From Candidatus Blautia faecipullorum (GTDB lineage Bacteria; Bacillota; Clostridia; Lachnospirales; Lachnospiraceae), in contig DXEG01000011.1 in NCBI GenBank assembly GCA_019115125.1, forward strand, positions 39,010 through 103,009: DNA of 64,000 nt, given 5' to 3'. Below, piece by piece: positions 147-16,515 of the stretch. The notes under the pieces are model-generated. The model did no database searches, was not told the DNA's origin, and was given only the letters and a program-made list of their open reading frames with translations. How positions within the stretch are numbered: the stretch's first letter is position 1; each line of letters opens with the position of its first letter. The position numbers were made by a program, and so were the translations under genes.

Positions 147-1529
147 CTAGTCTTTATAGGTATAGACTAATTGTATATTTTCTTTTTTTTCCGTGTCTAT
201 TGCAAGTGTAATATATTCATTCTCATCCGGACTGGTAATTCCGATACCGATCTGGTATCCCTGACGGAACTCGTCCGTAAACGGAATACTGCACACCGTC
301 TCCACGGAGATTCCCGGATAAAGCTCAGAGAGCCTGATATCCACCGTCTCCCAGTATTTCAGTCTTCCTTCCGCATTATACACATACATTGTTACCGGCC
401 AATCCCAGTACAGAGGCGCAAGCCCTTTATTCTCCCACACGATTTTCACGTCAAGCTGTCCTTCTGAAAAAGAATACTGAGTACTCAAGCTGGATATGAA
501 ATAACGATACCCCAGCTCCTCTCTAATCACCTGCGCGGAATTTTGATCCTTAAAGCTTCCCTCGGGACATTTGGGGCCTATGAAAGTCATGTGGCTGTCC
601 CGGATCATTTCCAGAGTTTCCGCCAATCTGTCCGAAAGCAGCTCTTCCATGGCAAACTCGCTGGTAAACTCTCCTCCGGATGGCGCTGTCTCCCAGAAGT
701 TCTCCATCGGTTTATACTCCAGAGCTTTTCCCGACGTCTCAAAGCTTCCGCCGCTCTCGATCCACCCCAGCCACTCATCCGTATCCGAAGAACTTCCCGT
801 CATATCGTTGTACAAGCCCATTCCGCCGTCAGCCGCCATTACATAATTTCTTCGCATCATAAGACGGGCATTATGAAAATTATCGGAATAGTCCAGCACA
901 TAATCCCAACAGATCTGGGCGTCCGGCATGGGAGAAATTCCCTCCTCCGTATTTGTGTGCCACTCTCCCCAGTGACCAAGACTGCCAAGCTCCACATAAG
1001 ATACAAAATCATCCTGGTTGCAGTATTCGGCCAGAGCCTCCACAGCCAGGCTGTGTCTCTCTCTGAAATATTCATTTTCATAATCCGGAGAGTATCCGGC
1101 TCCGTATCCGTTATCATAAAATTCTCCGTCTCTGGTCCGTTCATACAGCCATTCCGGTATGTCCATATGTCTTTCATCCTGAGGTATGTCACATATAAAC
1201 CTCAGTACAGCATGTTTATTCTCGCTTTTCCACCGCTCAATATGAAACATTTCCTCCAAAGCATCTGTATCATACTCTCCCTGCCTTGGTTCCCACATTT
1301 TCCATGTAAGTCCGATGTAAACCAGCTTAGAATCCCCGCACTCCTCCTCATCTTCCGCCGGAGGCGCATATCCGGTGAGCGGATTATCCAAAGGCTCCTT
1401 CGACTCGCTGAAGGTTACCGTATGATTCAGTTGGTACCGGTAAGGTACAATATAAAGCAGAAGTCCGGCGCAGGCCAGTGACAGCACGATCAGCATGATA
1501 TACGGAATCTTTGAACGTCGTCTCTCCAT
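147..1529 (-). CDS. DUF4832-family membrane-anchored protein of the exopolysaccharide operon
   Basis: A 460-residue protein with one N-terminal membrane helix (about residues 9-29) and a large outside domain. That domain resembles the DUF4832 family, whose folds are related to TIM-barrel glycoside hydrolases; acidic and aromatic stretches such as YVELGSLGHWGEWH (about residues 178-191) are typical. The enzyme activity is unknown. It follows the DUF4956 gene by 9 bases and is the last complete gene of the Pel-like operon. A role in trimming or anchoring the secreted polysaccharide is inference from position only. Confidence 0.7.
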   Translation of the reverse strand: MERRRSKIPYIMLIVLSLACAGLLLYIVPYRYQLNHTVTFSESKEPLDNPLTGYAPPAEDEEECGDSKLVYIGLTWKMWEPRQGEYDTDALEEMFHIERWKSENKHAVLRFICDIPQDERHMDIPEWLYERTRDGEFYDNGYGAGYSPDYENEYFRERHSLAVEALAEYCNQDDFVSYVELGSLGHWGEWHTNTEEGISPMPDAQICWDYVLDYSDNFHNARLMMRRNYVMAADGGMGLYNDMTGSSSDTDEWLGWIESGGSFETSGKALEYKPMENFWETAPSGGEFTSEFAMEELLSDRLAETLEMIRDSHMTFIGPKCPEGSFKDQNSAQVIREELGYRYFISSLSTQYSFSEGQLDVKIVWENKGLAPLYWDWPVTMYVYNAEGRLKYWETVDIRLSELYPGISVETVCSIPFTDEFRQGYQIGIGITSPDENEYITLAIDTEKKENIQLVYTYKD

Positions 1530-1538
1530 CTATTCCTC

Positions 1539-2222
1539 CTATCCGTGATACTCTCCATTGTACTGGATCAGCGACACATCCTTCACTCCCTCAATTGCTT
1601 GGATCTGCTCCATAAAAACCGTATTCTGGTTCTTGGTGATCAACTCCACCGTGAGCTCCGTCATCTCGCCTCTCATAGTTTTTGATTTCAACTGATGACG
1701 CATTTTATGCAGTATACGCATGATTTCGTCTCCCGTCGCCTGGGAATCATAATGGACGACCAGAATAAAAATTGTTCCCTTTTTTCTCCTGTTATAGAAA
1801 ATATGAACCACAAATACCATAATCAGCATCGTGCAGACCGCCAGTATATACAATCCTGCTCCCAGAGTGATTCCCACAGAGATAGACCAGAACAAATATA
1901 AAAGATCCATGGGGTCCTTAATAGCCGTACGGTAACGAACAATAGACAGCGCGCCGACCATACCGAGCGAGATTACAATATTGCTGCTGATCGCCAGGGT
2001 CAGCATACAGCTCAGCACCGTCATTCCCACCAGGGTAACGGCAAAGGAGCTGGAAAAAACCACGCCTCCGAAATAGTGTCCGTATATCTTATAAATGAAA
2101 ATTCCCAGCACAACCGCCAGCAGCATGGCTGTTACCGCCGTCGCCACAAAATCAGAAGTGATCCCCTGAGAACTCATAAATGAATCCCAGACCGAATTTT
2201 TAAAATAATCCCTTATATTCAT
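1539..2222 (-). CDS. DUF4956 integral membrane protein
   Basis: A 227-residue protein with about four membrane helices in its first 150 residues and a cytosolic C-terminal alpha/beta domain. The segment GALSIVRYRTAIKDPMDLLY is the family signature of DUF4956. Members are very often encoded beside VTC-domain and CotH proteins, as here. The ATG overlaps the stop of the VTC gene (ATGA-type overlap at 2219-2222), so the two are translationally coupled. Molecular function is not established. A transport or membrane-assembly role for the neighbouring polymerase is a guess. Confidence 0.8.
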   Translation of the reverse strand: MNIRDYFKNSVWDSFMSSQGITSDFVATAVTAMLLAVVLGIFIYKIYGHYFGGVVFSSSFAVTLVGMTVLSCMLTLAISSNIVISLGMVGALSIVRYRTAIKDPMDLLYLFWSISVGITLGAGLYILAVCTMLIMVFVVHIFYNRRKKGTIFILVVHYDSQATGDEIMRILHKMRHQLKSKTMRGEMTELTVELITKNQNTVFMEQIQAIEGVKDVSLIQYNGEYHG

Positions 2223-2974
2223 CTTCTGTTCCTCCTGTTTGTTTTTGAAATGCCGGACAGCACATCTGTCCTGTAAAACGCCTTTTCATAGCATAAGGTA
2301 TATTTTGAAATAGCAGAAAATTCCTGACCGTCCAGCGGAAGAAGTTCCTTGATGATCAGCGGCAGCATTTCCGTAAACTTCACCTCCAGCACCAGTCTGT
2401 CCGGCTCCAGGACATTTTCCACTGGAAGCTCCGGGTCAAATATATCATAAGTAAAAGCCCCTGCTCTGATATCGCTGTCAAAGGTGATCCTGACGTCTCC
2501 CTCCTGACGGATCAGAGGCGTTCTCTCGTAGTCCACTATAACCCTGGGCCTGTACAGCTTCACCGTACATTCATAATAAAATTCCCGGCAGAGAGGATAT
2601 TTACTGTAAAGCAGAAACTCATAATCTCCCTCCATGATCTTTTCATATTCTGCCCGGGTCAGCGGAGCGGAATCCTTATGTATGTAGCTTCCCCATTTCT
2701 TTTTCCGCTCCAGCTTTATACTGCGGCTGCTGTAATTATAAATCCTTATGCGCCATTTCTGGCGGTATTCCACGCCCATCATCTTTTCTTCATAACCGGA
2801 ATTCCAGTAGTCGTCAAAATAAAGACTCCTGATCATATACATTCCGTTTTCCGCGTTGGGGTCTGTCTCCATAAAGGGCAGAAGTCTCTTTTTCAGCATT
2901 TCTGCCTCCCACAGCGAAATATAATACTTCCACTCATTTCTATACTTTTCGGGCCTGCGCAAAAAAGCTGCCAT
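2219..2974 (-). CDS. VTC-domain polyphosphate polymerase family protein
   Basis: About 251 residues with the triphosphate-tunnel fold of the VTC family: RSLYFDD near the start, the basic strands KWRIRIYN and IKLERKKKW, then LEVKF and an SKY segment near the C-terminus. In yeast VTC4 this fold makes polyphosphate from ATP; in bacteria the product has rarely been tested. I start it at the ATG at 2974, 9 bases after a GGAGG and just after the CotH stop (2976-2978); an ATG at 2983 is the alternative. A longer in-frame extension up to 3130 lies entirely inside the CotH gene and is rejected. Confidence 0.8.
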   Translation of the reverse strand: MAAFLRRPEKYRNEWKYYISLWEAEMLKKRLLPFMETDPNAENGMYMIRSLYFDDYWNSGYEEKMMGVEYRQKWRIRIYNYSSRSIKLERKKKWGSYIHKDSAPLTRAEYEKIMEGDYEFLLYSKYPLCREFYYECTVKLYRPRVIVDYERTPLIRQEGDVRITFDSDIRAGAFTYDIFDPELPVENVLEPDRLVLEVKFTEMLPLIIKELLPLDGQEFSAISKYTLCYEKAFYRTDVLSGISKTNRRNRR

Positions 2975-2975
2975 T

Positions 2976-4742
2976 TCATTCATCCTCCCCGAATCTGGAA
3001 GCGGCTGCCGTACCGTCCTCCAATATGTAAAAGCATAGAGTACTGTAGCTGGCAGTTCCCTTCTCCGTGTTATAGTACTCGTACGCATCCTGGCTGATCC
3101 CATTTTCCCCGGAAGCCCGAATCCGCACAAAATACTGGCCTGCAGGAAGCTGTTCTGTCCTGTATTCTGTCTTGTCTGTCTGCTCGTTTACGATACAGTC
3201 TTCAAACGTATAATCTGCCGCCACCTCAACTGTATAGACAGCCGACGCGCCCTCGAATACATACGACTCTTCCCAGCTAAACACGGTGCTTCCGTTTTCG
3301 TTCACCGGATCCTTAATATGGAAAGGCCATGCCGAAGCCATGGTTTCTTTATACATATTATAATTGTCGGCAATCTCATCCGCCATACTGTCTGATAATA
3401 TATCATACTCCTCCTGAGAAACCGGCACATAGGTCTGATCCGGAAGGGAATAAAGATACTCCTCCGTAGCCGCTCTGTAAGTATTGATTTTTTCCTGTAC
3501 CGCCTCTTCGGTCAGGTAATTGACGTACAGATCTTCTACCGCGGCATCCAGCTCCTGCCGGCAGGAGGAATCCTGCAGAATCCTCCGGAACAGAATTTTA
3601 TCTATAAAAGTAAAAATCCCTTTGTTCCATGACCGGTCATAGGAAGCATCCTCCATAAGCTCATATTCTTCTTTCAGAATGCCATCGTTATCCCACGAAA
3701 TGAAATACCATTTGTCCGATCCTCTCGCACTGTAAAGATAATAGTTGCCGTTCAATACATCTTTATTTCCGGTCAATATATGAAATGCCATCCAGTAATA
3801 AAGATTCTCACGGTCGAAATACTGCTCTGCCACCTCACTGATCTGATTATCTGTATCATTCACAGCATCCAGAAGAGCTATGATCTTATCATGCTCCTCA
3901 GATCCTCCAATTTCCAGATATTGCTCGAATTTCTCCGGATCATAGTCAGCGTCCGTAGCCAGTAAGATGCTGTCCTCGTGACGTCCCCAGTCAAAATTTT
4001 TTCCCGCCTGATATAAAGCCCCGTCATTATCAAAGCCTCTGTTTTTGAGGTAAGTTTTATTAACCTGCTCCACCTGGGTGTAAAGTCCGTAATCGCGGAA
4101 CAGGCCGTCCTCACCCTGGGTTTTATCTTTTACATAAAGGTGTACAAAGGTCGTTCTGGCACTGAGCATCTGAGGGATCTCCTCCATCAGGGAATAGGCC
4201 AGCTTATTTTTATATCTCACAGGATCCGCGATGTGCTTATTCAGGGATATGGTTTTCTGATCCTGCCATTTTCCGCTTCCGTCTTTAATCCTGATCCGAT
4301 AGCTTTTTTGCTGCTGAGCGGACGCTGCTTTACCGCGGAGCTGGACTGTGGCGTTTGCCGTTCTGTCTCCATAGCCAAACTTTCCCTCTACCGGCCCGCT
4401 TTCATCCCCTACCTGCAGAACCGCCTCGCATTTATACGGTTCGATTCCCTGATCTTCATACCAGGACAGCGGATGGCTGTTTACCTCTGTCCAGGTATGC
4501 TTTGTGCCGTCCTCTTCATTTCCAAGCCCCACGGTCAGATACATGGTTACAATTTTATCATCCTCACTATCATACAGGGATTCCTTATCCCTGAGCTGAT
4601 AATCCCCGCTGCTGCTCCCCGTAGTCTCGTAGGTCTCGTCAGCGCTGACCAGCACGGCATTATCATCCTCCGCTGCGCTGCATCCGGTCAGAAGCGCCGG
4701 CAGAAGCAGCAGCGGCAGAAGCCAAACCGCTTTTCCCTTCAT
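2976..4742 (-). CDS. cotH: CotH-family kinase lipoprotein
   Basis: A 588-residue secreted protein with a lipoprotein signal (hydrophobic residues 7-19, lipobox LLTGC with Cys21). The CotH domain spans about residues 64-430. Kinase-like residues are present: FHILTGNKD near 320-328 and the metal-binding SWDND near 349-353. CotH of Bacillus is a spore-coat protein kinase with an atypical fold. The C-terminus carries a fibronectin-like beta segment (about 480-575). It is closely related to the C-terminal half of the upstream PelG fusion and sits 28 bases after it, suggesting tandem duplication. Its substrate is unknown. Confidence 0.85.
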   Translation of the reverse strand: MKGKAVWLLPLLLLPALLTGCSAAEDDNAVLVSADETYETTGSSSGDYQLRDKESLYDSEDDKIVTMYLTVGLGNEEDGTKHTWTEVNSHPLSWYEDQGIEPYKCEAVLQVGDESGPVEGKFGYGDRTANATVQLRGKAASAQQQKSYRIRIKDGSGKWQDQKTISLNKHIADPVRYKNKLAYSLMEEIPQMLSARTTFVHLYVKDKTQGEDGLFRDYGLYTQVEQVNKTYLKNRGFDNDGALYQAGKNFDWGRHEDSILLATDADYDPEKFEQYLEIGGSEEHDKIIALLDAVNDTDNQISEVAEQYFDRENLYYWMAFHILTGNKDVLNGNYYLYSARGSDKWYFISWDNDGILKEEYELMEDASYDRSWNKGIFTFIDKILFRRILQDSSCRQELDAAVEDLYVNYLTEEAVQEKINTYRAATEEYLYSLPDQTYVPVSQEEYDILSDSMADEIADNYNMYKETMASAWPFHIKDPVNENGSTVFSWEESYVFEGASAVYTVEVAADYTFEDCIVNEQTDKTEYRTEQLPAGQYFVRIRASGENGISQDAYEYYNTEKGTASYSTLCFYILEDGTAAASRFGEDE

Positions 4743-4770
4743 TCTAGTCCTCCTAACGTTCTTCTGTCAC

Positions 4771-7700
4771 TCATTCTTCATTTACCTCTTCTATGATTGT
4801 TCCATCCTCTTTTATTGTAAAAGCCTTTGCCCCATAAGCTTTTCCATCATCGGTGGACACATAATCATAACAATCCTGTACATAACCGGATTCATTCACC
4901 GCCTGTACCCGGATATAGTAGGTTCCCGGCTCCGGCATATTGAGGGTCACCTCCGGAAGACGTATATTGTCTTCAGAATATAGGACATCTGTAAAATTAT
5001 AATCCCTGGCAAGCATAAACCGGTATATAATATCTTCTCCGTCAAAATCAAAGGCCGCATCCCAAAGCACGTTCAATTTTCCCTCCTCCTCGGCAGGATT
5101 GCTGACAAAAAACGGCATCGGACGTTCCAGACTTTCTCTGTAATATCCATAATTTTCTTCCAGTTCATCGCCTAAAGAGGAGACAATCATCTCAAAGTCA
5201 TCCGGCTCCATTCGCGCATTCTCCTCGTCCGGCATTCTGTACAGATATAGCTTCACAACCGCCGCATACTGTTCCGCCATGGAAGCAACTTTATCCGGTG
5301 TCAGGTAATTCTCCCTCAGATCATTTACCGCGGCGGTGAGCATCTCCCTGTACTGCTCTTCACGAAAGATTCTGTTGAATAATATAATATGTGTAAATTG
5401 AGTCAATCCCTGCTCCCAGGACTGTCCTTCTGTGTAGCCTCGTATTTTGTGATATGTCCTCGCAAACGATGCGTCATTGTCCCAGGAAATGAAATACCAC
5501 TTTTCAGAATTCTGAGGGCTGTAAAGATAATAATTACGGGAACCCACGTCATAGTTGCCTGTCAGAATGTGAAAAGCCATCCAGTAGCAAATATTCTGCA
5601 TATCAAAATGCTCTTCCACAATTTCTTCTATAGGTATCGCATAATCATTTACCTCCTCAAGAAGATCCAGAAGCTTCCTGTGATCGTCACAGCCCTTAAT
5701 CTCAATATACTCTTCAAAGGCTTTCTCATCATACCCGGCGTCTGTTTTCAGCTTCAGCTCGTCATACAGATACCATTCAAAGAAGTTGATTTTGTAAAGA
5801 TAACCTTTATTATCCAGACCATGGGTGCTGAGATAAGTTTTATTAATCTGCTCTACCTGGGTGTACAGGCCGTAATCTGTAAATTCTCCGTTTCCTCCCT
5901 CCGTCTCATCCTTTACATAGAGATGCACGAACTGGGTTCTGGCGCTCATCATCTGGGGGATTTCCTTCATCAGGTCATAGCACAGCTTATTGCGGAAACG
6001 AGTGGGATCTCCCACATGCTTATTGAGAGCGATGGTACGCTGTCCACGCCATTCCCCTTTCCCATCCTTGATACGGATCTTATAATTTTTCTGCTCGCTT
6101 TTGGAGGAAGTCTGGCCTCTGATCTGCACCGCCGCATTAGGCGCGGTTTCACCGTAGCCCAACTCTCCTTCTACAGGACCATTCTCGTCTCCCACCTGAA
6201 GAATAGCCTCACAGTTATATCTGTCCAGGTCATTGTCCTCATAATAATAGGTATCATAGGTATTAATCTCCGTCCAGGTATGATCCGTAACGTCTGCCTC
6301 ATTTCCCGAACGCACTGTCAGATACATAGTAACAACCGAAGTTTCATTGTCCCCGGCGTAGACCGCCTTATTGTCTGACAGGGTCTCCTCCGTCTCCTTC
6401 AGTTCTTCCTTCTCCACCGGGGTTCCCGTTAAACGCGCTTCACTTTCTTCAGTTATATCCTGCGTCCGGCTGTTTCCGCCGACGCTTTCCGAAGACGCTC
6501 CGCACCCGCTGAGGAAACAGATCAGCACCAGCATGGCGGCTCCTGTCAGTCGTCTCTTTTTCTTCCATTTTTCTTTTGGATTTTCCTTTTTCCTACGGTC
6601 TCTTTCATCTAGATAATCGCATAGCCCGGCGAAAATCCCTTTTTCCGTATTAGGCAGCATTGACTTCCGGCAGAGCAGGAAATACGGCAGTCGTCTGGTA
6701 TACCATTCCAGGCGGAGCCAGACGATAAAATAAAAGACGACTCCTCCGATCAAAAATCCCAGTCCAAAAAACTCAACCGATCCATACAGGTTCTGGAGTA
6801 TCGTCAGCACAACACTGACCGTCGCAAATGCCGCTGTTCCCAAAAGCGCTCCAGTATAATCCTCAAAATACAGAAGGATCAGCATGATCGAATTACTGAT
6901 AGCATAAATTCCATATCCCGTACAGAGGAATCGAAAAATTCCAATAGAAGTATCGGTAAAGCCCACGGACATCCATTCCAGCACATAGCTGCCGAACACT
7001 ACGAACAATATAGTTGAGATCAACTGCTTATGCCCGCTAAAGGTCAGTTCCTGCTTCAGTACGGAAAGCATTTTCGTTTCCGCCTGTTCAATATCCCTAA
7101 TAGAGCCATTGTCGTTAAACAGGCTGTAATAATTTCTGTATTCCGGATAAAACCGTACTTCAACAGAAGTGACAAAATTCACTGTAGTGATCAATATAGA
7201 AAAAAACGCGATCAGAGCCGGCACATCATGAGCGGGAGCCCCGTAAAAAAGTCCCTCTACCTGTACCCTGAGAGGTCCGAAATACATAATTACCAGATGA
7301 GCGAACAGACCGATATTAATAAATCCCCCGGAAAAAGCAAGTGATTTGTATTTGTCAAACCACCGGAGAAACGCATATTTACTTCCATCATTCTTCGGAA
7401 AATAATCCAGGAGCAGCTTATAATACCATACCATCAATGTACCGTAGGCAATGATAATGCAGAGCATCAGGCTCACGATGCTCACCCATCCTAAAACCAC
7501 CAATACCAGGGCGCAGAAAAACCCCAGCAGCAGGGAAATCGCAAACGCCAACACGATCCCCTTGTAATCTTTTAGGGCGGTAAGATACACGATCTCCATC
7601 CACACAACGATCAGTATCAGGGAAAACCACAGGCACAAAACCTGGTAAGTAAACTTCACTCCCGAAAAATGGAGAAATACCGCGTACAGGATTCCGCCGA

Positions 7701-8040
7701 CCGCCAGCATGACCGAACAGCTTCCATATAAGGAAGGCATAATCTTTTCTGGCTTTTCTTCATAAAGCATGTCCGAGATATAACGCGTTGTAACCATGTT
7801 AAACCAGCTTGTAACGGAAAGAGAAACCAGAAGGCTGTATGTAAGCATGCAATTCATGAGCTCTCTGTCATGAGCCGACATTCCGGCCAACCTCGCCGTA
7901 AGACTCACTCCTGTCAACATGATAACACCCAGTATCATGGGACCTGCGCATATAATTCCCGCGTATCCATATGCCCTGCAAAGTGAAAACACACCTTTTT
8001 TGTTAAATAATCTCTTTAAGCTGAATCCGATTCCCGCCAT
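4771..8040 (-). CDS. pelG: PelG exopolysaccharide exporter fused to a CotH kinase domain
   Basis: A 1089-residue fusion. Residues 1 to about 460 are PelG, a roughly 12-helix MOP-superfamily polysaccharide transporter; the start MAGIGFSLKRLF is typical of the family. A basic linker (480-497) leads to an extra hydrophobic helix (498-511) ending in a lipobox-like LSGC (Cys513), then a CotH domain (about 566-930) with FHILTGNYDV (823-832) and SWDND (852-856). The internal lipobox suggests that a separate CotH lipoprotein gene was joined in frame to pelG. The extra helix would place CotH outside the cell beside the export pore. It overlaps pelF by 25 bases. Confidence 0.88.
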   Translation of the reverse strand: MAGIGFSLKRLFNKKGVFSLCRAYGYAGIICAGPMILGVIMLTGVSLTARLAGMSAHDRELMNCMLTYSLLVSLSVTSWFNMVTTRYISDMLYEEKPEKIMPSLYGSCSVMLAVGGILYAVFLHFSGVKFTYQVLCLWFSLILIVVWMEIVYLTALKDYKGIVLAFAISLLLGFFCALVLVVLGWVSIVSLMLCIIIAYGTLMVWYYKLLLDYFPKNDGSKYAFLRWFDKYKSLAFSGGFINIGLFAHLVIMYFGPLRVQVEGLFYGAPAHDVPALIAFFSILITTVNFVTSVEVRFYPEYRNYYSLFNDNGSIRDIEQAETKMLSVLKQELTFSGHKQLISTILFVVFGSYVLEWMSVGFTDTSIGIFRFLCTGYGIYAISNSIMLILLYFEDYTGALLGTAAFATVSVVLTILQNLYGSVEFFGLGFLIGGVVFYFIVWLRLEWYTRRLPYFLLCRKSMLPNTEKGIFAGLCDYLDERDRRKKENPKEKWKKKRRLTGAAMLVLICFLSGCGASSESVGGNSRTQDITEESEARLTGTPVEKEELKETEETLSDNKAVYAGDNETSVVTMYLTVRSGNEADVTDHTWTEINTYDTYYYEDNDLDRYNCEAILQVGDENGPVEGELGYGETAPNAAVQIRGQTSSKSEQKNYKIRIKDGKGEWRGQRTIALNKHVGDPTRFRNKLCYDLMKEIPQMMSARTQFVHLYVKDETEGGNGEFTDYGLYTQVEQINKTYLSTHGLDNKGYLYKINFFEWYLYDELKLKTDAGYDEKAFEEYIEIKGCDDHRKLLDLLEEVNDYAIPIEEIVEEHFDMQNICYWMAFHILTGNYDVGSRNYYLYSPQNSEKWYFISWDNDASFARTYHKIRGYTEGQSWEQGLTQFTHIILFNRIFREEQYREMLTAAVNDLRENYLTPDKVASMAEQYAAVVKLYLYRMPDEENARMEPDDFEMIVSSLGDELEENYGYYRESLERPMPFFVSNPAEEEGKLNVLWDAAFDFDGEDIIYRFMLARDYNFTDVLYSEDNIRLPEVTLNMPEPGTYYIRVQAVNESGYVQDCYDYVSTDDGKAYGAKAFTIKEDGTIIEEVNEE

Positions 8041-9440
8041 CGTCTAAACACCTCGTCATATTCATCCAGATAATTTTGTATCATATCTTCATGCCGGAAA
8101 TACAGCTCCACACGCTTCTTTCCCGTAATTCCCATCTGATATCTCTCTTCAGGATGTACGCACATCATTTCCAGAGCGTCGCTTAAAGCTTCTCTATACA
8201 TCGGCGGAACACAGTATCCTGCCGATCCCAGCTCATCATCCCCCATTCCGTTGATCAACTGCTTACAGCAGCCCACGTCCGTCACCACGCACGGTCTGCC
8301 CGCCGCAAAGGATTCCAGAACGGAAAGCGGCATTCCTTCAGATATGCTGCTCAACACTGTAAAATCAAATTTTTCCATGTATTCCAGGACATTGACTGTC
8401 CCAAGAAAGAATACGTCCCTAGTACCCAGATGTTCATTTAAAGCATAACACTCCTGAGCATATTCTTTATCGTCCTCAGGTCCGGCCACATAGAGCCTCG
8501 CATTGGGAACTCTTCTTTTAAGCTCCGCAAAAGCATACAAAAGAGTTTTTACGTCTTTTATGGGAGAAATTCTCAGTATGGCTCCGATATCAATAAACCC
8601 GTTCTCTTTTTTCAACGGCATCGAACAGAATCTTTCAAAATGGATCCCGTTCACAATATACCTGCATTTCTCTCTGTGGCAGCCCATATCGATCTGCATT
8701 TCCATAGCTTTATCAAAGAGACTTGTAATTCCTGAAGCCTTTTCATAGGCCGCCGCGGAAAGCATATAAAAAAATCTTACCCAGAATCTTTTAAACGCAG
8801 GAACCACCCATTTGGCTCTGATGATCTCTTCTTCTCTTTCACGGGTGTAGATTCCATGCTCTGTAATTTCATAGGGAGCATGGTTGACGTAGCTGCCCAG
8901 TCTTGCCAGAATCCCGCTGTACCCGGTGGCGATAGCATGATAAATATCCGCCTTTGGCACCTCCGTCTGCATAATATACAGCACAGGAAGCAGCATTGAA
9001 CGAACCGTATGGAACAGGTCGGAAAAGCTTACATACGGATACTCCTCATGACAGATTTTAGTGAGGATATTCAAAAAATCCTCGCTCATCAGAAACGCGA
9101 TGGGCGATATTCTTCTGTCATGATACATTTTGAACAACTTTTCCCAATTCGGCCTGCGGCAGTTTACAAATTCGCGCAGTTCCCGAACCTCTTCCTCCGT
9201 AAACTGATATTTCCCTTTGGTAAGCTGCATGCCAAAAGCGTCGTCCAGAAATATCTCCCGCACCTCCACAACATTTTCAGGAAGCTCGTATTTAAACTTT
9301 CCCCTGTCCTTCGCGTTGGCACCAACCGCCCATACTACGAATTCATGCTGAGGCATGCCTTTCATATACTGATGTATCCATGTGGAAACGCCGCCGGTCA
9401 CATAAGGATAGCAGCCTTCCAAAATCACACAAATCCTCAT
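8016..9440 (-). CDS. pelF: PelF-type GT4 glycosyltransferase
   Basis: A 474-residue cytosolic GT-B fold glycosyltransferase. The N-terminus ILEGCYPYVTGGVSTWIHQY is characteristic of PelF, and the C-terminal half has the E-x7-E motif in SEGMPLSVLESF with the preceding nucleotide-sugar pocket. PelF polymerises Pel from UDP-sugars in Pseudomonas (GalNAc/GlcNAc type). Length is close to the usual 500. The start is 3 bases after the stop of the second DUF2194 gene and the 3' end overlaps pelG, so the genes are tightly coupled. Donor sugar in this organism is not readable from sequence. Confidence 0.92.
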   Translation of the reverse strand: MRICVILEGCYPYVTGGVSTWIHQYMKGMPQHEFVVWAVGANAKDRGKFKYELPENVVEVREIFLDDAFGMQLTKGKYQFTEEEVRELREFVNCRRPNWEKLFKMYHDRRISPIAFLMSEDFLNILTKICHEEYPYVSFSDLFHTVRSMLLPVLYIMQTEVPKADIYHAIATGYSGILARLGSYVNHAPYEITEHGIYTREREEEIIRAKWVVPAFKRFWVRFFYMLSAAAYEKASGITSLFDKAMEMQIDMGCHREKCRYIVNGIHFERFCSMPLKKENGFIDIGAILRISPIKDVKTLLYAFAELKRRVPNARLYVAGPEDDKEYAQECYALNEHLGTRDVFFLGTVNVLEYMEKFDFTVLSSISEGMPLSVLESFAAGRPCVVTDVGCCKQLINGMGDDELGSAGYCVPPMYREALSDALEMMCVHPEERYQMGITGKKRVELYFRHEDMIQNYLDEYDEVFRRWRESDSA

Positions 9441-9443
9441 CTA

Positions 9444-11333
9444 TTATCCCTTCTTAACGACACTAATACTTTCCGCTTCTGCTTTCAGCAGATAAAGATT
9501 CCCTGTGAGATGAAACAGTTCTCCGCCCTCCGTTTTGTCCGCTTCAGGCTCCCACTTATTAAAGCGGATCAGGAACCACGCTTCATCCTGAAAGTTGTCA
9601 ATATAAAAATCTGTTCCGCTTTCCGCAGGCTTACCGTCGATAGCTGCATAATAAAACCTCTGAACCGCAGCAGCCGCTTCTGACCCGGTGTGTTTCCTGA
9701 TATTTCCGGCAGCTCCTTCCAGCCATTTCTCATAATTCTCAAGAGTCTCGTAAAGGGCCGGCCATCCAAGCTCCGCACCGGCATCCGGATTCAGCACATC
9801 CAGCGGGGACATTGCATGGGACGCTACATAGTGCATATTCAGTTCTGACAATGCACTCATTTTCATAGATTCGTCAAAATTACATCCCGAAGTAATCCGG
9901 GGCGTCAGAATCATTCCATTCTCATCTACCTCATATTCCTGCTCGGCGGCATAGCCTTGTCCAAAATAAGAGCCCGCAATGGATCTGATATCAGGAAGAG
10001 CTTCCTTTACAGCTCTTTTTCCCTCCTCGGACAAAATACCGGAAGGGGGTGTATAAACCTGCAGCGTAATATCTTCCGTGATTGTCTGGCAGAACCTTAC
10101 GGCTTCTCTCAGCCCGTCCGCCATATCCTGAACACTGTTCCAGTAATTCAGCTTCAAATCCTTTTCATAATCCGGAAGCTTCTCAAGCTCCGCCGGATCA
10201 AGGCTGCTGGTTTCCAGGCACAATGGCTGCTGGTTATAGCCGTACATACCCGCCTCACCACCTGCTTCGAGCATAGAAGAAATAAAATACTGATACCGGT
10301 TTGCCGAGTTTTTTTCCTCATAGGGAGGCTCCACCTCGTCGTCGTTGTTTTCCACAATCGTTCCCGTATAACGGATACCATATTTTCCGGCAAGAGAAAG
10401 CAAGTCGTTCCACCATTCTCTTACATAAAAGGAATAGGTATCCATCCCCTCTCCATAAGCATCTGTAATATAACCGTTTTTATCTGACGGAAGCGGGAAT
10501 GGAAAACCATCCAGATAAAAAGAAGCGCTGTTAACAACCGGCCATACGCAGTATTCCGAAAGAAGGCTGTAGGCCATGGCATATATTCCGCGATAGCTTT
10601 TTTCATAGTGTCCTAAATTCACTGCCACAACATGCCCCTTCTCTGCCTGTGTTTCCCACAACACAGGAATTTCCCTCTCGTCTGCCGTCACTATATACAC
10701 GCTGCAGTTTTCATTCAATTCCACCGGAAGAGCTGATTCAAACGGATACATGATCTTGTAATCGCTGGCGCCGCCGGTAAGCATAAAATCTTCTTCGATA
10801 CGGATACCGGAAACAGAGTAATAGGTCTTTCCCATATTCATCACGCCAATATGACTGCTCATCCAGTCATATACGCTTCCTCCCTCCGGTACCTGAGGAA
10901 GAAACAGACTGCCGCCTGCTTCCATCCAGTCTACTGCGGCAAGAAGCAGCTCACTATTTTCCTGATAATTTGTAAAACCAAGCACAATGATATCATATTG
11001 TTCCAGTTCAATAACGCTTCCATCTCTGAGATCGATCTCCCTGTAATCCACCTTCATATCCTGAAATATCTGCGTTATCTGTTCATGAAAAACATTGGAA
11101 TTTTCGTCCTCGCTGTCCCACACATACAGACAGCCGGCGCTTTCCGCCGTCTCCCGGTCTTTAACGCCGGACAGATCCGCATTATCAAAAACAGAATTAT
11201 CCAGAATATTGAGCTCTGATTTTACGGACAGATTTCTCATCCATCCATACTGTCCCAGCAATGCCACTGTCAGTAGAAGAAATACTGCCAGGATAAGAAT
11301 AACTGAAACATATTTTCCGCGTCTTTTTTCCAT
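9444..11333 (-). CDS. DUF2194 protein, probable inactive PelA-like deacetylase paralogue
   Basis: A 629-residue protein with an N-terminal membrane helix (9-28), a GATase-like alpha/beta domain (about 65-260) and a NodB-like deacetylase-type region. Where its paralogue (11380-13215) has FYIDDF and HGYNH, this copy has FYLDGF (D275-G276) and YGYNQ (364-368). It therefore lacks the second Asp and both His of the expected metal site. It probably acts as a binding or scaffold partner rather than an enzyme. It lies between the active-looking paralogue and pelF, corresponding to the PelA position of other Pel operons. Confidence 0.78.
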   Translation of the reverse strand: MEKRRGKYVSVILILAVFLLLTVALLGQYGWMRNLSVKSELNILDNSVFDNADLSGVKDRETAESAGCLYVWDSEDENSNVFHEQITQIFQDMKVDYREIDLRDGSVIELEQYDIIVLGFTNYQENSELLLAAVDWMEAGGSLFLPQVPEGGSVYDWMSSHIGVMNMGKTYYSVSGIRIEEDFMLTGGASDYKIMYPFESALPVELNENCSVYIVTADEREIPVLWETQAEKGHVVAVNLGHYEKSYRGIYAMAYSLLSEYCVWPVVNSASFYLDGFPFPLPSDKNGYITDAYGEGMDTYSFYVREWWNDLLSLAGKYGIRYTGTIVENNDDEVEPPYEEKNSANRYQYFISSMLEAGGEAGMYGYNQQPLCLETSSLDPAELEKLPDYEKDLKLNYWNSVQDMADGLREAVRFCQTITEDITLQVYTPPSGILSEEGKRAVKEALPDIRSIAGSYFGQGYAAEQEYEVDENGMILTPRITSGCNFDESMKMSALSELNMHYVASHAMSPLDVLNPDAGAELGWPALYETLENYEKWLEGAAGNIRKHTGSEAAAAVQRFYYAAIDGKPAESGTDFYIDNFQDEAWFLIRFNKWEPEADKTEGGELFHLTGNLYLLKAEAESISVVKKG

Positions 11334-11379
11334 AACCTTTCCCTTTTGCGTCCGATTTATCCTAAGTCTCCCGGGAGTT

Positions 11380-13215
11380 TTACCTTATCGGAATCTCCAC
11401 CGTATCGTCTGTTGCATGGACAAGATAAAGTCCCTCCAGCAATTCTTCTATGGTCCCGCCGCTTGCCTCACCCGGCGTGCCCTCATTTACTCTCAGAAAC
11501 AGCCAGGCTTCATCCTGAAAACCCTCAAAACTCAGCCTGAGAGAATCTCCGGAGTATTCTCTCCGGACCTGCAGTTCATCATAAATCTGTACCGCAGCCG
11601 CCAGCTCTGTTCCTGTAAGATTACGGATATCCGGAGCTGCCTGATAAAGCCAATCTGTATAATCTAAAAGTCTCCCGAACATTTCCTTCCAGCCCAATTC
11701 AGCTCCCCGATCCTTATCCAGGGTATCATCCGGATGTTGGAAATGAGAATTCACATAATGGAAATTCAGCTCAGAAAGAGCGGCAAGCCGCATATAGTCG
11801 TCCAATATATAACCAGAAATCACTCTTGGAGTTTCAATAATGCCATCCTCTCCCACCTCAAATTCCTGATCATAAGAAATCCCTTCTGAATCAGGAAGGT
11901 AAATGCTGGCTACAGCCCGTATATCCGCCGCCTCTTTCAGCGCCGCTCTTCCTTCCTCTGACAGAATATTCGAAGGCGGGACATAAACCTGAAACTTTTC
12001 CTCCGGATAAAGTTCCTGACAGAACCGCCTCAATTCAGTAAGAGACGCCTTCATATCGTCATAACTTTCCCACAGCCTGTATGCATCATATTCTCCCTTA
12101 TAGTCAAATCCTAGAAGACACAGAGGCATATGATTATAGCCATGAAAACCGAGCTCTCCGCCCAGAGACAGCAGCATATTTCCAAAATACCGGTACCGGT
12201 GTATGTCCGTATTTTCCTGAAAGGGAGCCTCCACCTGGTCCGAGTACTCCTCAATCACCAGTCCTGTATACCGTAGTCCGTATTTTTTTGCCAGATTATA
12301 GACGTCTCTCCACCAAATCTGCGTATAAAAATCAGAGATACTCATTCCATAATCCCGTTCTATATACTGGCTGTTTCCTCCAGGGACGGGCGATGGAAAA
12401 TCGTCTATATAAAAGGCCGATCCATTAATCACAGGATAAGCACAGACATCCTCCAATAATGTATAGGAGGCGGCATAAAATCCTCTGTAAGCTTTTTCCA
12501 GGAAACCAAGATTATCAAAAACAATCCTTCCTTCGCCCGCTTCCCTGCTCCAGATCAGCGGAATCCTGTATTCATCATCCGATTCCAGATACACCTGACA
12601 ATCGTCCGACAATTCCACAACCAATGATGATTCGTATGGATCTGTAACTTTATAATCTGTCAGATCCCCGCCAAGCATAAACTCTCTGCTGAAATGAAAG
12701 CCCTCCACCATATGGTAGTTCTTTCCCATAGTAGAAATTCCTAAACTGACACCCACGCTCTCCAGCATCCCGTTGTGTTCAGGAGGATAAAGCACCATCA
12801 AGCCTCCTCCTGCTTTTACCCACTCTATAATATCCAAAAGAGTTTCATCTAAAATGCTCAGGTCCGTAACAGAGAATACAATGGTTTTGTATTCCTGCAG
12901 ATCCACTTTTTCGGCTTCTCTGCCGCTGCAGGCGTCATAAGGAATCTTCATCTGCTCCAAAACCGCTTCCATCAACTGCAACCCGCTTTTTCCGTTCGCA
13001 TCGTCTTCCCAGAAGATCATACATTCCGACTGACTTTCTGCATTGTCCGCCGTGAAGGAAACTGCTTCCAAAGGTTCCAGAAGAAGCTCCTGCTTCTTAT
13101 ATGGAACGTTCTTCTGAACGATACATAAAACAATAACCAACAAAAGAAAAACAGCAATCACCGTCTGCATTCTACCAAATCGAAATCTTTTTTTTGATGT
13201 CTTATTTTTTTTCAC
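11380..13215 (-). CDS. DUF2194 protein, probable PelA-type polysaccharide deacetylase
   Basis: A 611-residue membrane-anchored protein (helix about 17-33) with a GATase-like domain (about 60-260) followed by a NodB-like region. Visible metal-site candidates are AFYIDDFPSP (Asp271-Asp272) and GFHGYNH (His358 and His362, an HxxxH motif). PelA of Pseudomonas has a similar reductase/GATase-like plus deacetylase arrangement, and Bacillus cereus has a deacetylase-only PelA at this operon position. I infer de-N-acetylation of the nascent polymer outside the membrane. No PelA-type glycoside hydrolase domain is evident. Its start overlaps the PelE-like stop by 4 bases. Confidence 0.8.
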   Translation of the reverse strand: MKKNKTSKKRFRFGRMQTVIAVFLLLVIVLCIVQKNVPYKKQELLLEPLEAVSFTADNAESQSECMIFWEDDANGKSGLQLMEAVLEQMKIPYDACSGREAEKVDLQEYKTIVFSVTDLSILDETLLDIIEWVKAGGGLMVLYPPEHNGMLESVGVSLGISTMGKNYHMVEGFHFSREFMLGGDLTDYKVTDPYESSLVVELSDDCQVYLESDDEYRIPLIWSREAGEGRIVFDNLGFLEKAYRGFYAASYTLLEDVCAYPVINGSAFYIDDFPSPVPGGNSQYIERDYGMSISDFYTQIWWRDVYNLAKKYGLRYTGLVIEEYSDQVEAPFQENTDIHRYRYFGNMLLSLGGELGFHGYNHMPLCLLGFDYKGEYDAYRLWESYDDMKASLTELRRFCQELYPEEKFQVYVPPSNILSEEGRAALKEAADIRAVASIYLPDSEGISYDQEFEVGEDGIIETPRVISGYILDDYMRLAALSELNFHYVNSHFQHPDDTLDKDRGAELGWKEMFGRLLDYTDWLYQAAPDIRNLTGTELAAAVQIYDELQVRREYSGDSLRLSFEGFQDEAWLFLRVNEGTPGEASGGTIEELLEGLYLVHATDDTVEIPIR

Positions 13216-14114
13216 GCTTCCTGCATATCCTCATCTTTCTTCCAGAAGGAAATTTCTCTTCGGCCTCGGGGCGTCAGATGAATTCTCCTTCTGCTGACCT
13301 GTTCTAATGTTCTGTCAATTCCCTGCCTGTCCTTCAACGCAGAATAATATTGGATCAGCAGAAGATAACCAGCCTCCTCCTTCTCCCAGTTCTCTACAAT
13401 ATACTGAATATCCTCCAGAGCAGTTTCATATTCCCTGATTTTCAGATCCGTTTTTATCTTTTCCTTCCAGAGGGCGAAGCTTTCCGGTGTATTTTTCAGC
13501 TTACGCTCCAGTATTCCGCTGTATGTACGCAACTTGATATCCATATCGTTTTCTTCCGCAATTCCGCTGTCCAGATATTGATTTAAAAGCTTTATGTATT
13601 TGTCTGTAACCTCATCGTCATCCGGATTTTTTTCCATTTCCCAGTCCAGCTCCTGAAAGCGGAAATCATATTCCTTCTGAAGCTCCGCCAGTGCAGTAAC
13701 CGCGTAATGGACAACCTCTGTATCGTCATTGGTACGGGCTTCCTTCAGTTGTTCCACATAATCGTCTGGGTTGGAATACATGACTTCCATCATCAGTTCC
13801 CTTCTTGTAGCAGGGTCATTGATCAGCAGAGCCTCCTCCAAGGGAACTACACGGTCCTCTATCGGATCCTCGTCCATCAGAATACTCCTGTAGATCTCGT
13901 CATTGATCTTCAGCTTTTCAATTCCGACATCTTCAAGGGTCTCCCGCTTTCCTCTGTTACGGATCTCCAGAAAAAACAAGGCAAGTATTCCCCATACCGG
14001 CACCAGGCAGACCAGAGGCATGATCATCCTTTCGGCTTTTAATATGGACAGTCTCATAAGTAAATAAATAATGATGCAAAGAATAATATGAATCAGCAAA
14101 AATATAACTATCAA
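13212..14114 (-). CDS. PelE-like membrane TPR protein
   Basis: A 300-residue protein with two membrane helices in residues 2-50 and a helical repeat domain after them. The stretch EALLINDPATRRELMMEVMY followed by NDDTEVVHYAVTALAELQ resembles the PelE/TPR proteins of Pel operons, which link PelD to the synthase complex. It follows the PelD-like gene by 15 bases and overlaps the next gene. No catalytic motif is seen. It most likely acts as a scaffold between the c-di-GMP receptor and the transferase/exporter; this is known for PelE and inferred here. Confidence 0.75.
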   Translation of the reverse strand: MIVIFLLIHIILCIIIYLLMRLSILKAERMIMPLVCLVPVWGILALFFLEIRNRGKRETLEDVGIEKLKINDEIYRSILMDEDPIEDRVVPLEEALLINDPATRRELMMEVMYSNPDDYVEQLKEARTNDDTEVVHYAVTALAELQKEYDFRFQELDWEMEKNPDDDEVTDKYIKLLNQYLDSGIAEENDMDIKLRTYSGILERKLKNTPESFALWKEKIKTDLKIREYETALEDIQYIVENWEKEEAGYLLLIQYYSALKDRQGIDRTLEQVSRRRIHLTPRGRREISFWKKDEDMQEA

Positions 14115-14129
14115 TTTTTTTCTCGCTTT

Positions 14130-16259
14130 CTAGGTAATATCCTCTACAATCTGGTATGCTATGCCCAAGCTCTTCAAACGATTTCCCACAATATGGAAGT
14201 TTTTCCGATTCATCTGTACAAGGAGAAGATAAATGTTTCCCTTCTCATCCATTCCCAGCATATCGTTGGCGCGAACCATTCCCGTGAGCCTTTCGTCAAG
14301 TCTTTTCAAATCGCCGTCCTCAAACCGGATAAGAACATAGTCGGCAATCCCTTCTTCCTTCATGGCCTTCTGTATATCAAGCGCCTGACGCAGACGCTGG
14401 GGATAAACCGTATGCGTATCCGGGTAATATCTCTGGGAAGCTGTCATTTCCTCATATTCCATGGCTCGAAGAAAAGAAGTCTGTACCAGCCCGCACATAA
14501 TCTGGAAAATATTCATATAGTGCATACCATACTGCTCCACCTCCGCCTCCCATATAGTAACCATCAGCACCATAGTCTCATCCCTAAAGATACCGCATGC
14601 ATACATCGGCTGTCCGGGGATCATTTCTGAATTTTTCCATACCCGCTTCTTAGTGGCAACATCATATACCTGCTGATAATCACTTATCCGGACAGACTTT
14701 GTCAGCGCAGTCAAAAGGCTGTTGGAGCATACCGCGAGCCGTCCGAACTGCTGACTCGCATCCATCGTGTAAATGGCGATAGCGTGATTCTCAAGAATAT
14801 CCTCCAAAACCTTCAGGCCTTCATAAAAAATACGTTCCGGAAGCTCGCTGTTCAGCTTCTGCACCGCGTCGAATATCTTCCCGAAGCTGTCCTTAAAGCC
14901 CAGGATCTGCTTCTTAAATTCTCCTTTATTCTCAATGGCTCCCTGATAAACCTCGTTCAAAAATAAATATTTATCTCTGAGAAGCGAATATTCCCTCTTC
15001 AAAAAGATAAGTGCATTGTCCTTTTTATCTGAGATATATCCTGTGATAGATCCAGCCATCAAATACACGATAAATGGAATCCAGTTTTCTATATTGTAGA
15101 AAAGAATGGTTCCGCTCATACCCATATGCATATATTCCCGGATCAGCACCAGACATTCCAAAACAGCCGCTACCAGTCCTGTTCTCATCCCATAGACTGT
15201 CCCCATGATCAAAATAAAAAACAGACGGATATCCACAAATTTGAAATAGATCGAATCAGAAGTATACTTACTGATAAATTCTGCGATTATAAACACAAGA
15301 ACCAGTTCGGCATACTTGAGCACGCCTTTTCCAGTTTTTGCAAGAAGGCCGGAGAGCTTTCCCGCCAGTCCTTTTCTCCGTTTTACGACTTCTCTTAGAA
15401 ACGTCCTGTAATATGCGCCGATATTCTCCATCACATTATCCATGGGAATAAATCCGTACTTTTTTCTTAATCCCGACGGATAGTCCGGAATCTCAGCGAG
15501 ATAAGGATATTTTTCGTAAAGGATCTCCGCGTCCGGCGCCGCCAGACGGATCATATCCTCCAGGTCTCCGTATGTATAATTGTATCCGCTTACCGCACTG
15601 TACACCCCGCCTTCATCCTCTGTTTCCTCCGTAATCTCCAGCATCAGCTCCGTCAAATCGCTGAGGGACAGAAAATCGACAGGAGTATCCCTGTGATAAG
15701 GAAACAGGATCTTTTGCTTTTCATACAGCTTTTGGTAGATACTTCCGAGAAAATTATGTTCATTGATCCTGTCCGCCAGATAAGGCATCTGAAGCACAAC
15801 TGTGCTTACTCCGAGCCTGTCTCCATAAAAAGAGCAAGCCTCCTCCAGTTGCCCCGCCCCAAAGGTACGGTTGCTGTAATAGCTTTTTCTGAGGATATCG
15901 CCTTTTTCCGCATGGTCAATAAAATAGTTACAGCTATCCGTGCTGGAAAGTACAGTCAGCTTATTTACCTGAAAATCCCGGCATACGGTCATCACTCTTT
16001 CCAACTGCTGCAGCTCTCCGAAAGAACCTTCGCCCCCATCCGCGTAGCCGCTGACATAAAAAACCGTTTGAAAACTGTACACGTCAAAAAGCTGCCGGAA
16101 CTGCTCTTCCATAACTGAGATTTTGTATATAATGATATTTTTCTGTTTCTTTCTCTGGACCGCTTTTCCCGCAACAACTACCCGGCAGCCTTCCGCAAGC
16201 TTCAGCAGCGCTTCTTCCGTAAATATTTCTGTTTTTCCGCAAATTAATATCTCTGTCAT
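14130..16259 (-). CDS. SDR domain fused to PelD-like c-di-GMP receptor
   Basis: A 709-residue protein. Residues 1-290 are an NAD-epimerase-like SDR domain, 316-405 hold four membrane helices, about 470-605 a GAF domain and 606-709 a degenerate GGDEF domain. The helices-GAF-GGDEF order is that of PelD. An RxxD motif (Arg663-Asp666) matches the inhibitory-site motif through which PelD binds c-di-GMP; the GGDEF signature itself is replaced by DEKGN. In the SDR part the catalytic Tyr/Lys pair is replaced (Phe133, Gln137) and the glycine-rich loop is poor, so epimerase activity is doubtful. I choose the ATG at 16259, with AGGAG 6-7 bases upstream; extension to 16367 would run through the terminator and riboswitch. 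Confidence 0.85.
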   Translation of the reverse strand: MTEILICGKTEIFTEEALLKLAEGCRVVVAGKAVQRKKQKNIIIYKISVMEEQFRQLFDVYSFQTVFYVSGYADGGEGSFGELQQLERVMTVCRDFQVNKLTVLSSTDSCNYFIDHAEKGDILRKSYYSNRTFGAGQLEEACSFYGDRLGVSTVVLQMPYLADRINEHNFLGSIYQKLYEKQKILFPYHRDTPVDFLSLSDLTELMLEITEETEDEGGVYSAVSGYNYTYGDLEDMIRLAAPDAEILYEKYPYLAEIPDYPSGLRKKYGFIPMDNVMENIGAYYRTFLREVVKRRKGLAGKLSGLLAKTGKGVLKYAELVLVFIIAEFISKYTSDSIYFKFVDIRLFFILIMGTVYGMRTGLVAAVLECLVLIREYMHMGMSGTILFYNIENWIPFIVYLMAGSITGYISDKKDNALIFLKREYSLLRDKYLFLNEVYQGAIENKGEFKKQILGFKDSFGKIFDAVQKLNSELPERIFYEGLKVLEDILENHAIAIYTMDASQQFGRLAVCSNSLLTALTKSVRISDYQQVYDVATKKRVWKNSEMIPGQPMYACGIFRDETMVLMVTIWEAEVEQYGMHYMNIFQIMCGLVQTSFLRAMEYEEMTASQRYYPDTHTVYPQRLRQALDIQKAMKEEGIADYVLIRFEDGDLKRLDERLTGMVRANDMLGMDEKGNIYLLLVQMNRKNFHIVGNRLKSLGIAYQIVEDIT

Positions 16260-16486: not shown

Positions 16487-16515
16487 ATATTACAATATAT
16501 TGCTGTTTCTGTCAA
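16487..16515 (-). promoter_or_regulatory. Sigma-70 promoter of the Pel-like operon
   Basis: TTGACA (16510-16515) and TAATAT (16487-16492) are separated by 17 bases, placing transcription start about 55 bases before the aptamer core. The stop codon TGA of the upstream diguanylate cyclase gene (16512-16514) lies inside the -35 box. An inverted repeat AGCAATAT (16497-16504) / ATATTGCT (16467-16474) brackets the -10 box and may be an operator. Confidence 0.8.

Follow-up and report, generated by a model that had tools for sequence, protein, structure and literature searches.

Why would an operon for the polysaccharide Pel continue, with almost no space between genes, into a kinase-fold protein, a relative of polyphosphate polymerases and two further proteins? 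The question is raised by positions 147 to 16259 of a 64,000-nucleotide stretch of DNA from Candidatus Blautia faecipullorum (contig DXEG01000011.1, positions 39,010 to 103,009), which is called the window here. On its minus strand, the run from 16259 to 147 reads pelD, pelE, two pelA(DA) copies, pelF and pelG, followed by CotH, VTC, DUF4956 and DUF4832, the gene set and order that the original prediction had given. The spacing from PelD through DUF4832 ranges from overlaps up to 46 bases, from which we infer a single joint transcript. The order is not due to chance, since it recurs at other pel loci. What sets this locus apart is that the exporter PelG and the first CotH domain (CotH1) form one protein. 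Because naturally fused neighbours are good evidence that two functions act at one place, the fusion suggests the mouth of the Pel exporter as the place of action of the CotH kinase-fold domain; from gene order by itself this could not be told. Our overall explanation, for and against which we see the case as evenly balanced, is a Pel operon joined by a portable VTC-DUF4956-CotH module, with CotH1 on PelG acting at the polymer exit.

The PelG frame runs without a stop through PelG (residues 1–453) and the CotH kinase-fold domain (residues 638–964). Between the two lie a charged linker and a hydrophobic segment with a lipobox-like LSGC (Cys 513), and a C-terminal tail follows CotH. The fusion is found in nine distinct loci (the window, L051, L052, L053, L054, L055, L056, L102, and L104); L110, a near-copy of L053, is not counted, and neither are the copies L100 and L106. 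In L056 the start of PelG is missing from the fetched frame. L053 is located on the complete chromosome of Claveliimonas bilis (NZ_AP024845.1). An assembly error as the cause of the fusion has been rejected, since the same fusion occurs in nine loci including this complete chromosome. A second, separate CotH (CotH2) is encoded downstream in all eight fused loci whose contig reaches that far, the contig of L052 ending before it.

The lipobox-like cysteine of the linker is present in 9/9 fused loci. Among the unfused CotH proteins, a simple lipobox-like four-residue pattern is present in 28/44 and missing in 16/44, some of which have a variant, so not every CotH requires the cysteine. A possible start codon lies in the 25 codons preceding the lipobox in five of the nine fused loci (L051, L053, L054, L102, and L104). 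In the window, L052, L055, and L056, no start codon there would yield a charged signal peptide, which makes separate initiation of CotH1 unlikely in these four, and an internal translation start has been rejected as a general explanation.

In a tree of 83 PelF rows, the eight fused rows that have a PelF gene form a nine-row group together with L107, an unfused locus with several broken frames. The tree, like the scoring of deacetylase and CotH motifs, leaves out L095, L100, L106, L108, and L110 as copies or near-copies. The fused state needs two changes on this tree compared with a shuffled mean of 7.8, and one change in 34% of bootstrap trees; a single origin of the fusion does not follow from these values. 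PelF, PelG, CotH1, and VTC are all strongly constrained, with proportions of nonsynonymous differences (pN) of 0.06–0.20 compared with proportions of synonymous differences (pS) of 0.67–0.86 between the window and up to six loci.

The original prediction expected one kinase-fold lipoprotein. CotH is indeed present, but as two domains, one of them inside the PelG frame, and a search of the window's own genome finds these two CotH domains in total. Both keep the N-x-D...N and WDxD motifs, which we take to be catalytic, and both are putative kinases. The motifs have been read off alignments with 5jd9, leaving out domains matched over 280 residues or fewer. They are complete in 12/12 rows of the CotH1 clade and in 5/11 rows of CotH2 (the window, L051, L053, L056, and L104). 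In the CotH2 of L102 a motif aspartate is replaced with glutamate, and motif residues are lost in L054, L055, L057, L107, and L114. The idea that PelA(DA) and CotH were duplicated together in a single event has been rejected because the copy numbers are uncoupled among loci: L051, L054, L057, L102, L114, and L118 have one PelA(DA) and two CotH, and L059 has two PelA(DA) and one CotH.

The VTC and DUF4956 genes are also found far from pel. Across the 398 genomes searched in the phylum, DUF4956 is found in 64, at 74 places. The 60 neighbourhoods examined are the better-scoring of these (62/74 with the window and L122). VTC is within 200 bases of DUF4956 in 59/60, the exception, L216, being at a contig end, and for this reason the two are regarded as a fixed functional pair. 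CotH is found within 4 kb in 28/60 and a Cthe_2159-like carbohydrate-binding protein, a group for which one representative has been confirmed by Pfam, within 5 kb in 23/60; one neighbourhood has both and 10/60 have neither. Genes of pel are nearby in just one of the 60 (L213), or 3/62 when the window and L122 are counted. As it mostly lacks pel nearby in the places examined, the VTC-DUF4956(-CotH) set is best described as a portable module and not as part of Pel synthesis proper. VTC-DUF4956 thus becomes a widespread pair of the phylum with exchangeable partners, CotH or Cthe_2159-like proteins, and more than a Pel accessory, which shifts where the function of the pair should be looked for.

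The non-pel cases mostly have the order VTC-DUF4956-CotH, unlike the pel order. The plasmid pNP95 of Pseudobutyrivibrio xylanivorans carries CotH-VTC-DUF4956, in the pel order, with other glycosyltransferases; its glycosyltransferase family 4 (GT4) neighbours reach just 47 and 23 bits with our own PelF profile. A Planococcus maritimus plasmid carries VTC-DUF4956-CotH-hypothetical-HEAT-GT2. These non-pel loci therefore stand against the statement, in the accessible part of PMC12345266, that no synteny of these genes was found outside pel. Across loci L171–L233, a Cthe_2159-like protein frequently comes after VTC-DUF4956, and in 31/63 loci the near neighbours include a member of a protein cluster represented by a response regulator, mostly two or three genes upstream. 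In L215, a 1014-residue protein (1513-4557) with leucine-rich-repeat, lamin-tail, Fn3-like, and CotH domains adjoins DUF4956-VTC; its similarity cluster spans nine loci.

The VTC profile (A1) matches the Vtc4 structure 3g3q (E-value 7.6e-17), and the conserved basic and acidic residues align. A search with the single VTC sequence against solved structures gave nothing relevant, while the profile search did match. Across 21 VTC proteins there are 24 invariant columns, and the conserved residues are kept in the window, in line with a putative polyphosphate synthesis. The aligned yeast Vtc4 positions presumably line the catalytic tunnel. No solved structure matches the DUF4956 profile, and in a test for membership of the MgtC family the protein scores 18.4 bits against a cut-off of 31.4 (Pfam) and 25.6 against 214 (NCBIfam). 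The modelling gives a low-confidence C-terminal alpha/beta domain. DUF4956 fits the expectation of a membrane protein of unknown function, which had been extended to two proteins. The DUF4832 protein, in which an N-terminal hydrophobic segment can be read by eye, does not, as its kind has an active glycoside hydrolase in Streptococcus intermedius (PMC12345266, accessible part). By analogy it is likely a glycoside hydrolase of the SIR_1591 type. In the same source, no change is described for the S. intermedius mutant of this hydrolase.

The two PelA(DA) copies differ in their catalytic residues. In a comparison with the Bacillus cereus PelADA (9zau), copy 1 (E-value 2.1e-67) retains IDDF, HGYNH, and HPDD, while in copy 2 (E-value 4.9e-38) these are replaced with LDGF, YGYNQ, and SPLD. 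Five catalytic and zinc residues have been scored, namely two aspartates, both histidines of HxxxH, and the histidine of HPDD; copy 1 of the window keeps 5/5 and copy 2 keeps 1/5, together with the proline and arginine motifs. Seven loci have both copies of this type in full length (pieces shorter than 500 residues, including those of L107, being left out); among them, copy 2 keeps 1/5 in the window, L052, L053, and L104, 4/5 in L055, and 5/5 in L059 and L060. Four of the five residues are therefore lost in 4/5 fused-group loci with a full-length copy 2. In a tree of 27 PelA(DA) rows chosen from about 20 loci, all seven copies 2 group together (98/95), and a long stem leads to the four broken ones. 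Copy 1 of L059 and L060 is placed beside the copy-2 group, away from the remaining copies 1, so a history more complex than a single duplication is possible. The broken copy 2 changes mainly synonymously (pN 0.24–0.29 compared with pS 0.70–0.74, the window against L052, L053, and L104, with synonymous sites near saturation) and is read as a maintained pseudoenzyme. The pair of active and inactive deacetylases hints at a pseudoenzyme partner in the Pel modification of this group.

L075 has two DUF2194 genes, both of another, motif-poor type. A second pel layout without the module is seen in genomes of the family Lachnospiraceae (L061–L075 and further members of the second PelF clade). In the three such loci examined (L061, L066, and L119), a frame of 739–903 residues lies between PelE and the DUF2194 gene; that of L061 (3830-6175) has no Pfam match. 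The deacetylase motifs are missing from the aligned columns of the DUF2194 protein of this layout.

How might these parts act together? PelF would make the polymer, PelG would export it under the control of cyclic di-GMP (c-di-GMP) via PelD, and PelA(DA) copy 1 would deacetylate it. To this Gram-positive Pel operon, the portable VTC-DUF4956-CotH module would have been added. The hydrophobic lipobox segment, following the presumed cytoplasmic end of PelG, would carry the chain across the membrane and, if that end is indeed cytoplasmic, CotH1 would be on the outer face beside the polymer exit. It could be a permanent tether there or, after lipidation and a cut by signal peptidase II, a released lipoprotein. 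CotH most likely phosphorylates a target at the exit, which could be the polymer or a surface protein such as PelA(DA), and would thereby set the amount and stickiness of Pel. VTC and DUF4956 most likely make polyphosphate at the membrane and would pass it outward as a phosphate donor or as a partner polymer. A CotH fused to PelG would follow the same logic as a proposal made from AlphaFold models by the authors of PMC13254593 (JBC 2026; accessible part), in which PelADA docks on PelG and acts on the polymer as it emerges. The altered Pel amount and aggregation after deletion of CotH and DUF4956 in S. intermedius (PMC12345266, accessible part) support the mechanism. A role of phosphate chemistry in making, modifying, or anchoring the polysaccharide is plausible. 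A more specific version, in which VTC-DUF4956 is a stand-alone polyphosphate synthase and exporter feeding an extracytoplasmic CotH that has no ATP, so that polyphosphate would pay for the phosphorylation of polysaccharides or surface proteins outside the cell and, in this clade, a kinase on the Pel exporter would phosphorylate the polymer on its way out, seems improbable to us.

Several points weigh against the exit mechanism. We know of no kinase substrate and of no phosphate on Pel. ATP is not expected outside the cell, so an extracytoplasmic CotH needs a putative donor. The AlphaFold2 models are too poor to use, with a predicted local distance difference test (pLDDT) score of 41.1 for the fusion and 58.5 for DUF4956, both too low for a structure search, and the topology of the fusion is consequently read from its sequence. 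In the family survey PelG is over the cut-off in 70/397 genomes, and an open frame of about 1090–1110 residues is found in 6/70; since PelG and CotH are unfused in the majority of module-bearing pel loci, the fusion is not required for function. In a sample of the class PelG is over the cut-off in 15/391, and the long frame is found in the window's own genome alone. The S. intermedius VTC mutant still aggregates, and no defect is named for it in the accessible part of PMC12345266. In the accessible text of PMC7112168 'fusion' and 'duplicat' are absent and 'fused' occurs once, for a cloning method, but its S4 Fig was outside this check and may draw a PelG-CotH fusion.

Other explanations account for parts of the same evidence. 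The fusion could have arisen neutrally, when a stop codon between two closely spaced genes was lost, and serve no function itself, with the internal lipobox splitting the product again, which is possible but doubtful. Unfused pelG and cotH frames often overlap or are within tens of bases, close enough for a single change to join them; the fused loci retain the lipobox, and L107 lies unfused within their group. A neutral event is harder to reconcile with a fusion kept in nine loci while synonymous sites approach saturation (six were compared with the window), and with the clustering of the fused rows on the PelF tree described above. CotH could instead act as a regulator of Pel synthesis, with a protein of the Pel complex as its phosphorylation target, while VTC and DUF4956 would be involved in phosphate homeostasis only. 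In the accessible parts of the sources, PMC7112168 calls CotH a spore-coat protein kinase and proposes a regulatory role, and deletion of CotH reduces the Pel amount (PMC12345266). That proposal was made mainly for streptococci without c-di-GMP control, whereas the PelD of the window keeps RxxD, as it does in all 34 scored loci with VTC; the frequency of CotH and Cthe_2159-like proteins around DUF4956 also points to surface chemistry, although phosphate-uptake genes were not searched for. We consider this regulatory role unlikely.

It has to be asked as well whether polyphosphate exported by VTC-DUF4956 cross-links positively charged, deacetylated Pel, with CotH anchoring or capping the polyphosphate. 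The distribution of genes would favour this: among 77 scored pel loci, VTC and an intact deacetylase occur together in 31 and are both missing in 40, two have VTC only (L076 and L128), and four have the deacetylase only (L052, L111, L126, and L136). Five VTC-less loci end less than 4.5 kb after PelG (L052, L111, L127, L130, and L139), and leaving these contig-end loci out gives 31, 37, two, and two. VTC is, however, present in 29/32 rows of one clade of the PelF tree and in 6/51 outside it. The pattern is weak evidence of a causal link because it mostly follows two deep clades, with few independent events. L076 and L128 have the module without an intact deacetylase, and L126 and L136 show the reverse; the module of L076, whose clade for the most part lacks it, appears to have been gained separately. 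The Pel of S. intermedius is also suggested, in the accessible part of PMC12345266, to be mainly N-acetylgalactosamine and neutral. Cross-linking by polyphosphate therefore appears very unlikely as the explanation.

The genes of the operon and the one upstream are listed in Table 1. PelD and PelE have been named from their position and from homologues at the same place in other pel loci, using our own profiles seeded from the window.

Table 1. Genes of the extended Pel operon and the adjacent upstream gene, with the evidence for each assignment.
Feature	Coordinates	Strand	Evidence
PelD-like, 709 amino acids from ATG; degenerate GGDEF with RxxD	14130..16259	-	Position, own profile
PelE-like	13212..14114	-	Position and own profile; no Pfam/NCBIfam family over cut-off
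PelA(DA) copy 1, motifs of CE26-type (carbohydrate esterase family) polysaccharide de-N-acetylase intact	11380..13215	-	DUF2194 (PelADA family) 528 bits
PelA(DA) copy 2, likely pseudo-deacetylase	9444..11333	-	DUF2194 417 bits
PelF, GT4 polymerase	8016..9440	-	DUF3492 (N-terminus) 269 bits, Glycos_transf_1; NCBIfam PelF equivalog 338 bits (cut-off 100)
PelG::CotH1 fusion, 1089 amino acids	4771..8040	-	Pfam PelG 417 bits (cut-off 29), CotH 239 bits
CotH2, separate protein, lipobox-like LTGC	2976..4742	-	CotH 198 bits (cut-off 23.8); 5jd9 E-value 3.5e-11
VTC-domain protein, polyphosphate-polymerase family	2219..2983	-	VTC 119 bits (cut-off 23)
DUF4956, predicted multi-pass membrane protein	1539..2222	-	DUF4956 45 bits
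DUF4832 protein, likely glycoside hydrolase like SIR_1591	147..1529	-	DUF4832 68 bits (cut-off 29.2)
Diguanylate cyclase-type protein, GGDEF motif present	16512..18059	-	GGDEF 112.6 bits

The PelD frame as listed begins at an upstream GTG (16367). In a Pfam scan its sole match is DUF4118, below the cut-off; no Pfam or NCBIfam match over the cut-off was found at its N-terminus for a degenerate short-chain dehydrogenase/reductase (SDR)/epimerase domain of the clostridial type, and a single-sequence search against solved structures gave nothing relevant. Its RxxD is RAND, a motif of the c-di-GMP-binding type, so binding is putative. RxxD is found in the PelD of 34/34 scored loci with VTC, the window counted, and of 36/39 without VTC. 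The diguanylate cyclase-type gene lies upstream on the same strand, 144 bases away from the listed PelD frame and outside the conserved set, and its product is a possible source of c-di-GMP for PelD. A CarD-type protein is encoded further upstream of this gene and the pel operon (18182-18694, minus strand). The promoter and terminator scan gave consensus matches only (46 compared with a shuffle mean of 32.9, sd 5.7, and 20 compared with 13.9, sd 3.8) and has not been used. Split frames are seen in L107 (PelA(DA)), L110 and L116 (CotH), and L116 (PelD and DUF4956), and are due to decay or assembly errors.

A gene-neighbourhood check shows that the module adjoins pel in far more than this one strain: VTC is present in 35/83 rows of the PelF tree, so the module is no peculiarity of one strain. 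The belief that the combination had no experimental description has to be given up, on the accessible parts of two papers. PMC7112168 (2020) describes genes for a CotH-like kinase, a poly-phosphate polymerase, DUF4956, and DUF4832 in an unbroken run with pelDEADAFG, both in streptococci and in clostridia, and in PMC12345266 (2025) each of the four accessory genes has been deleted in S. intermedius. Aggregation is still seen in all four deletion mutants. The CotH mutant has less Pel and the DUF4956 mutant more, and in both aggregation in artificial sputum is down by more than half. A literature search, covering text but not figures or supplements, for PelG and CotH together surfaced just these two papers, and priority for the fusion is for that reason not certain. 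The accessible text of PMC7112194 does not mention CotH, and its gene-fusion passages that name genes concern bcs. Within the literature searched, three papers name DUF4956. As far as could be seen, the operon in outline has already been described, and what is new is the exporter-kinase fusion, the pseudo-deacetylase, and the generality of VTC-DUF4956.

By comparison with the known systems, each as given in the accessible part of its source, the streptococcal and clostridial pelDEADAFG with cotH-PPP-DUF4956-DUF4832 (PMC7112168) has the same genes in the same order, contiguous with pel. The window differs from that text in having PelG-CotH as one protein, a second CotH, and a second PelA(DA) whose motifs are lost. 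In S. intermedius, SIR_1591-1594 (PMC12345266) encode CotH, a polyphosphate-polymerase-like protein, an MgtC/ACT-like membrane protein, and a DUF4832 hydrolase beside pel, as here. There, CotH is its own gene (SIR_1594) and PelD lacks GGDEF, in contrast to the PelG-fused CotH1 and the PelD retaining RxxD in the window. The CE26 enzyme PelADA of B. cereus (PMC13254593, PDB 9zau) shares its checked catalytic and zinc residues with copy 1, while copy 2 lacks equivalents of D263, both HxxxH histidines, and H488. A relative from outside pel is NELoc-2 of Clostridium perfringens (PMC2879425, 2010), with the order VTC-'tubulin'-resolvase-VTC-'tubulin'-CotH-hypothetical-HEAT-glycosyltransferase. On our reading, its 'tubulin' membrane proteins (226 and 222 amino acids) would be DUF4956 by size and place. 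NELoc-2 has a chitin-synthase-like glycosyltransferase and no pel genes in the passage that describes it, unlike the window. The two are alike in that VTC adjoins CotH and a polysaccharide synthase, and the plasmid locus L172 has a layout similar to that of NELoc-2.

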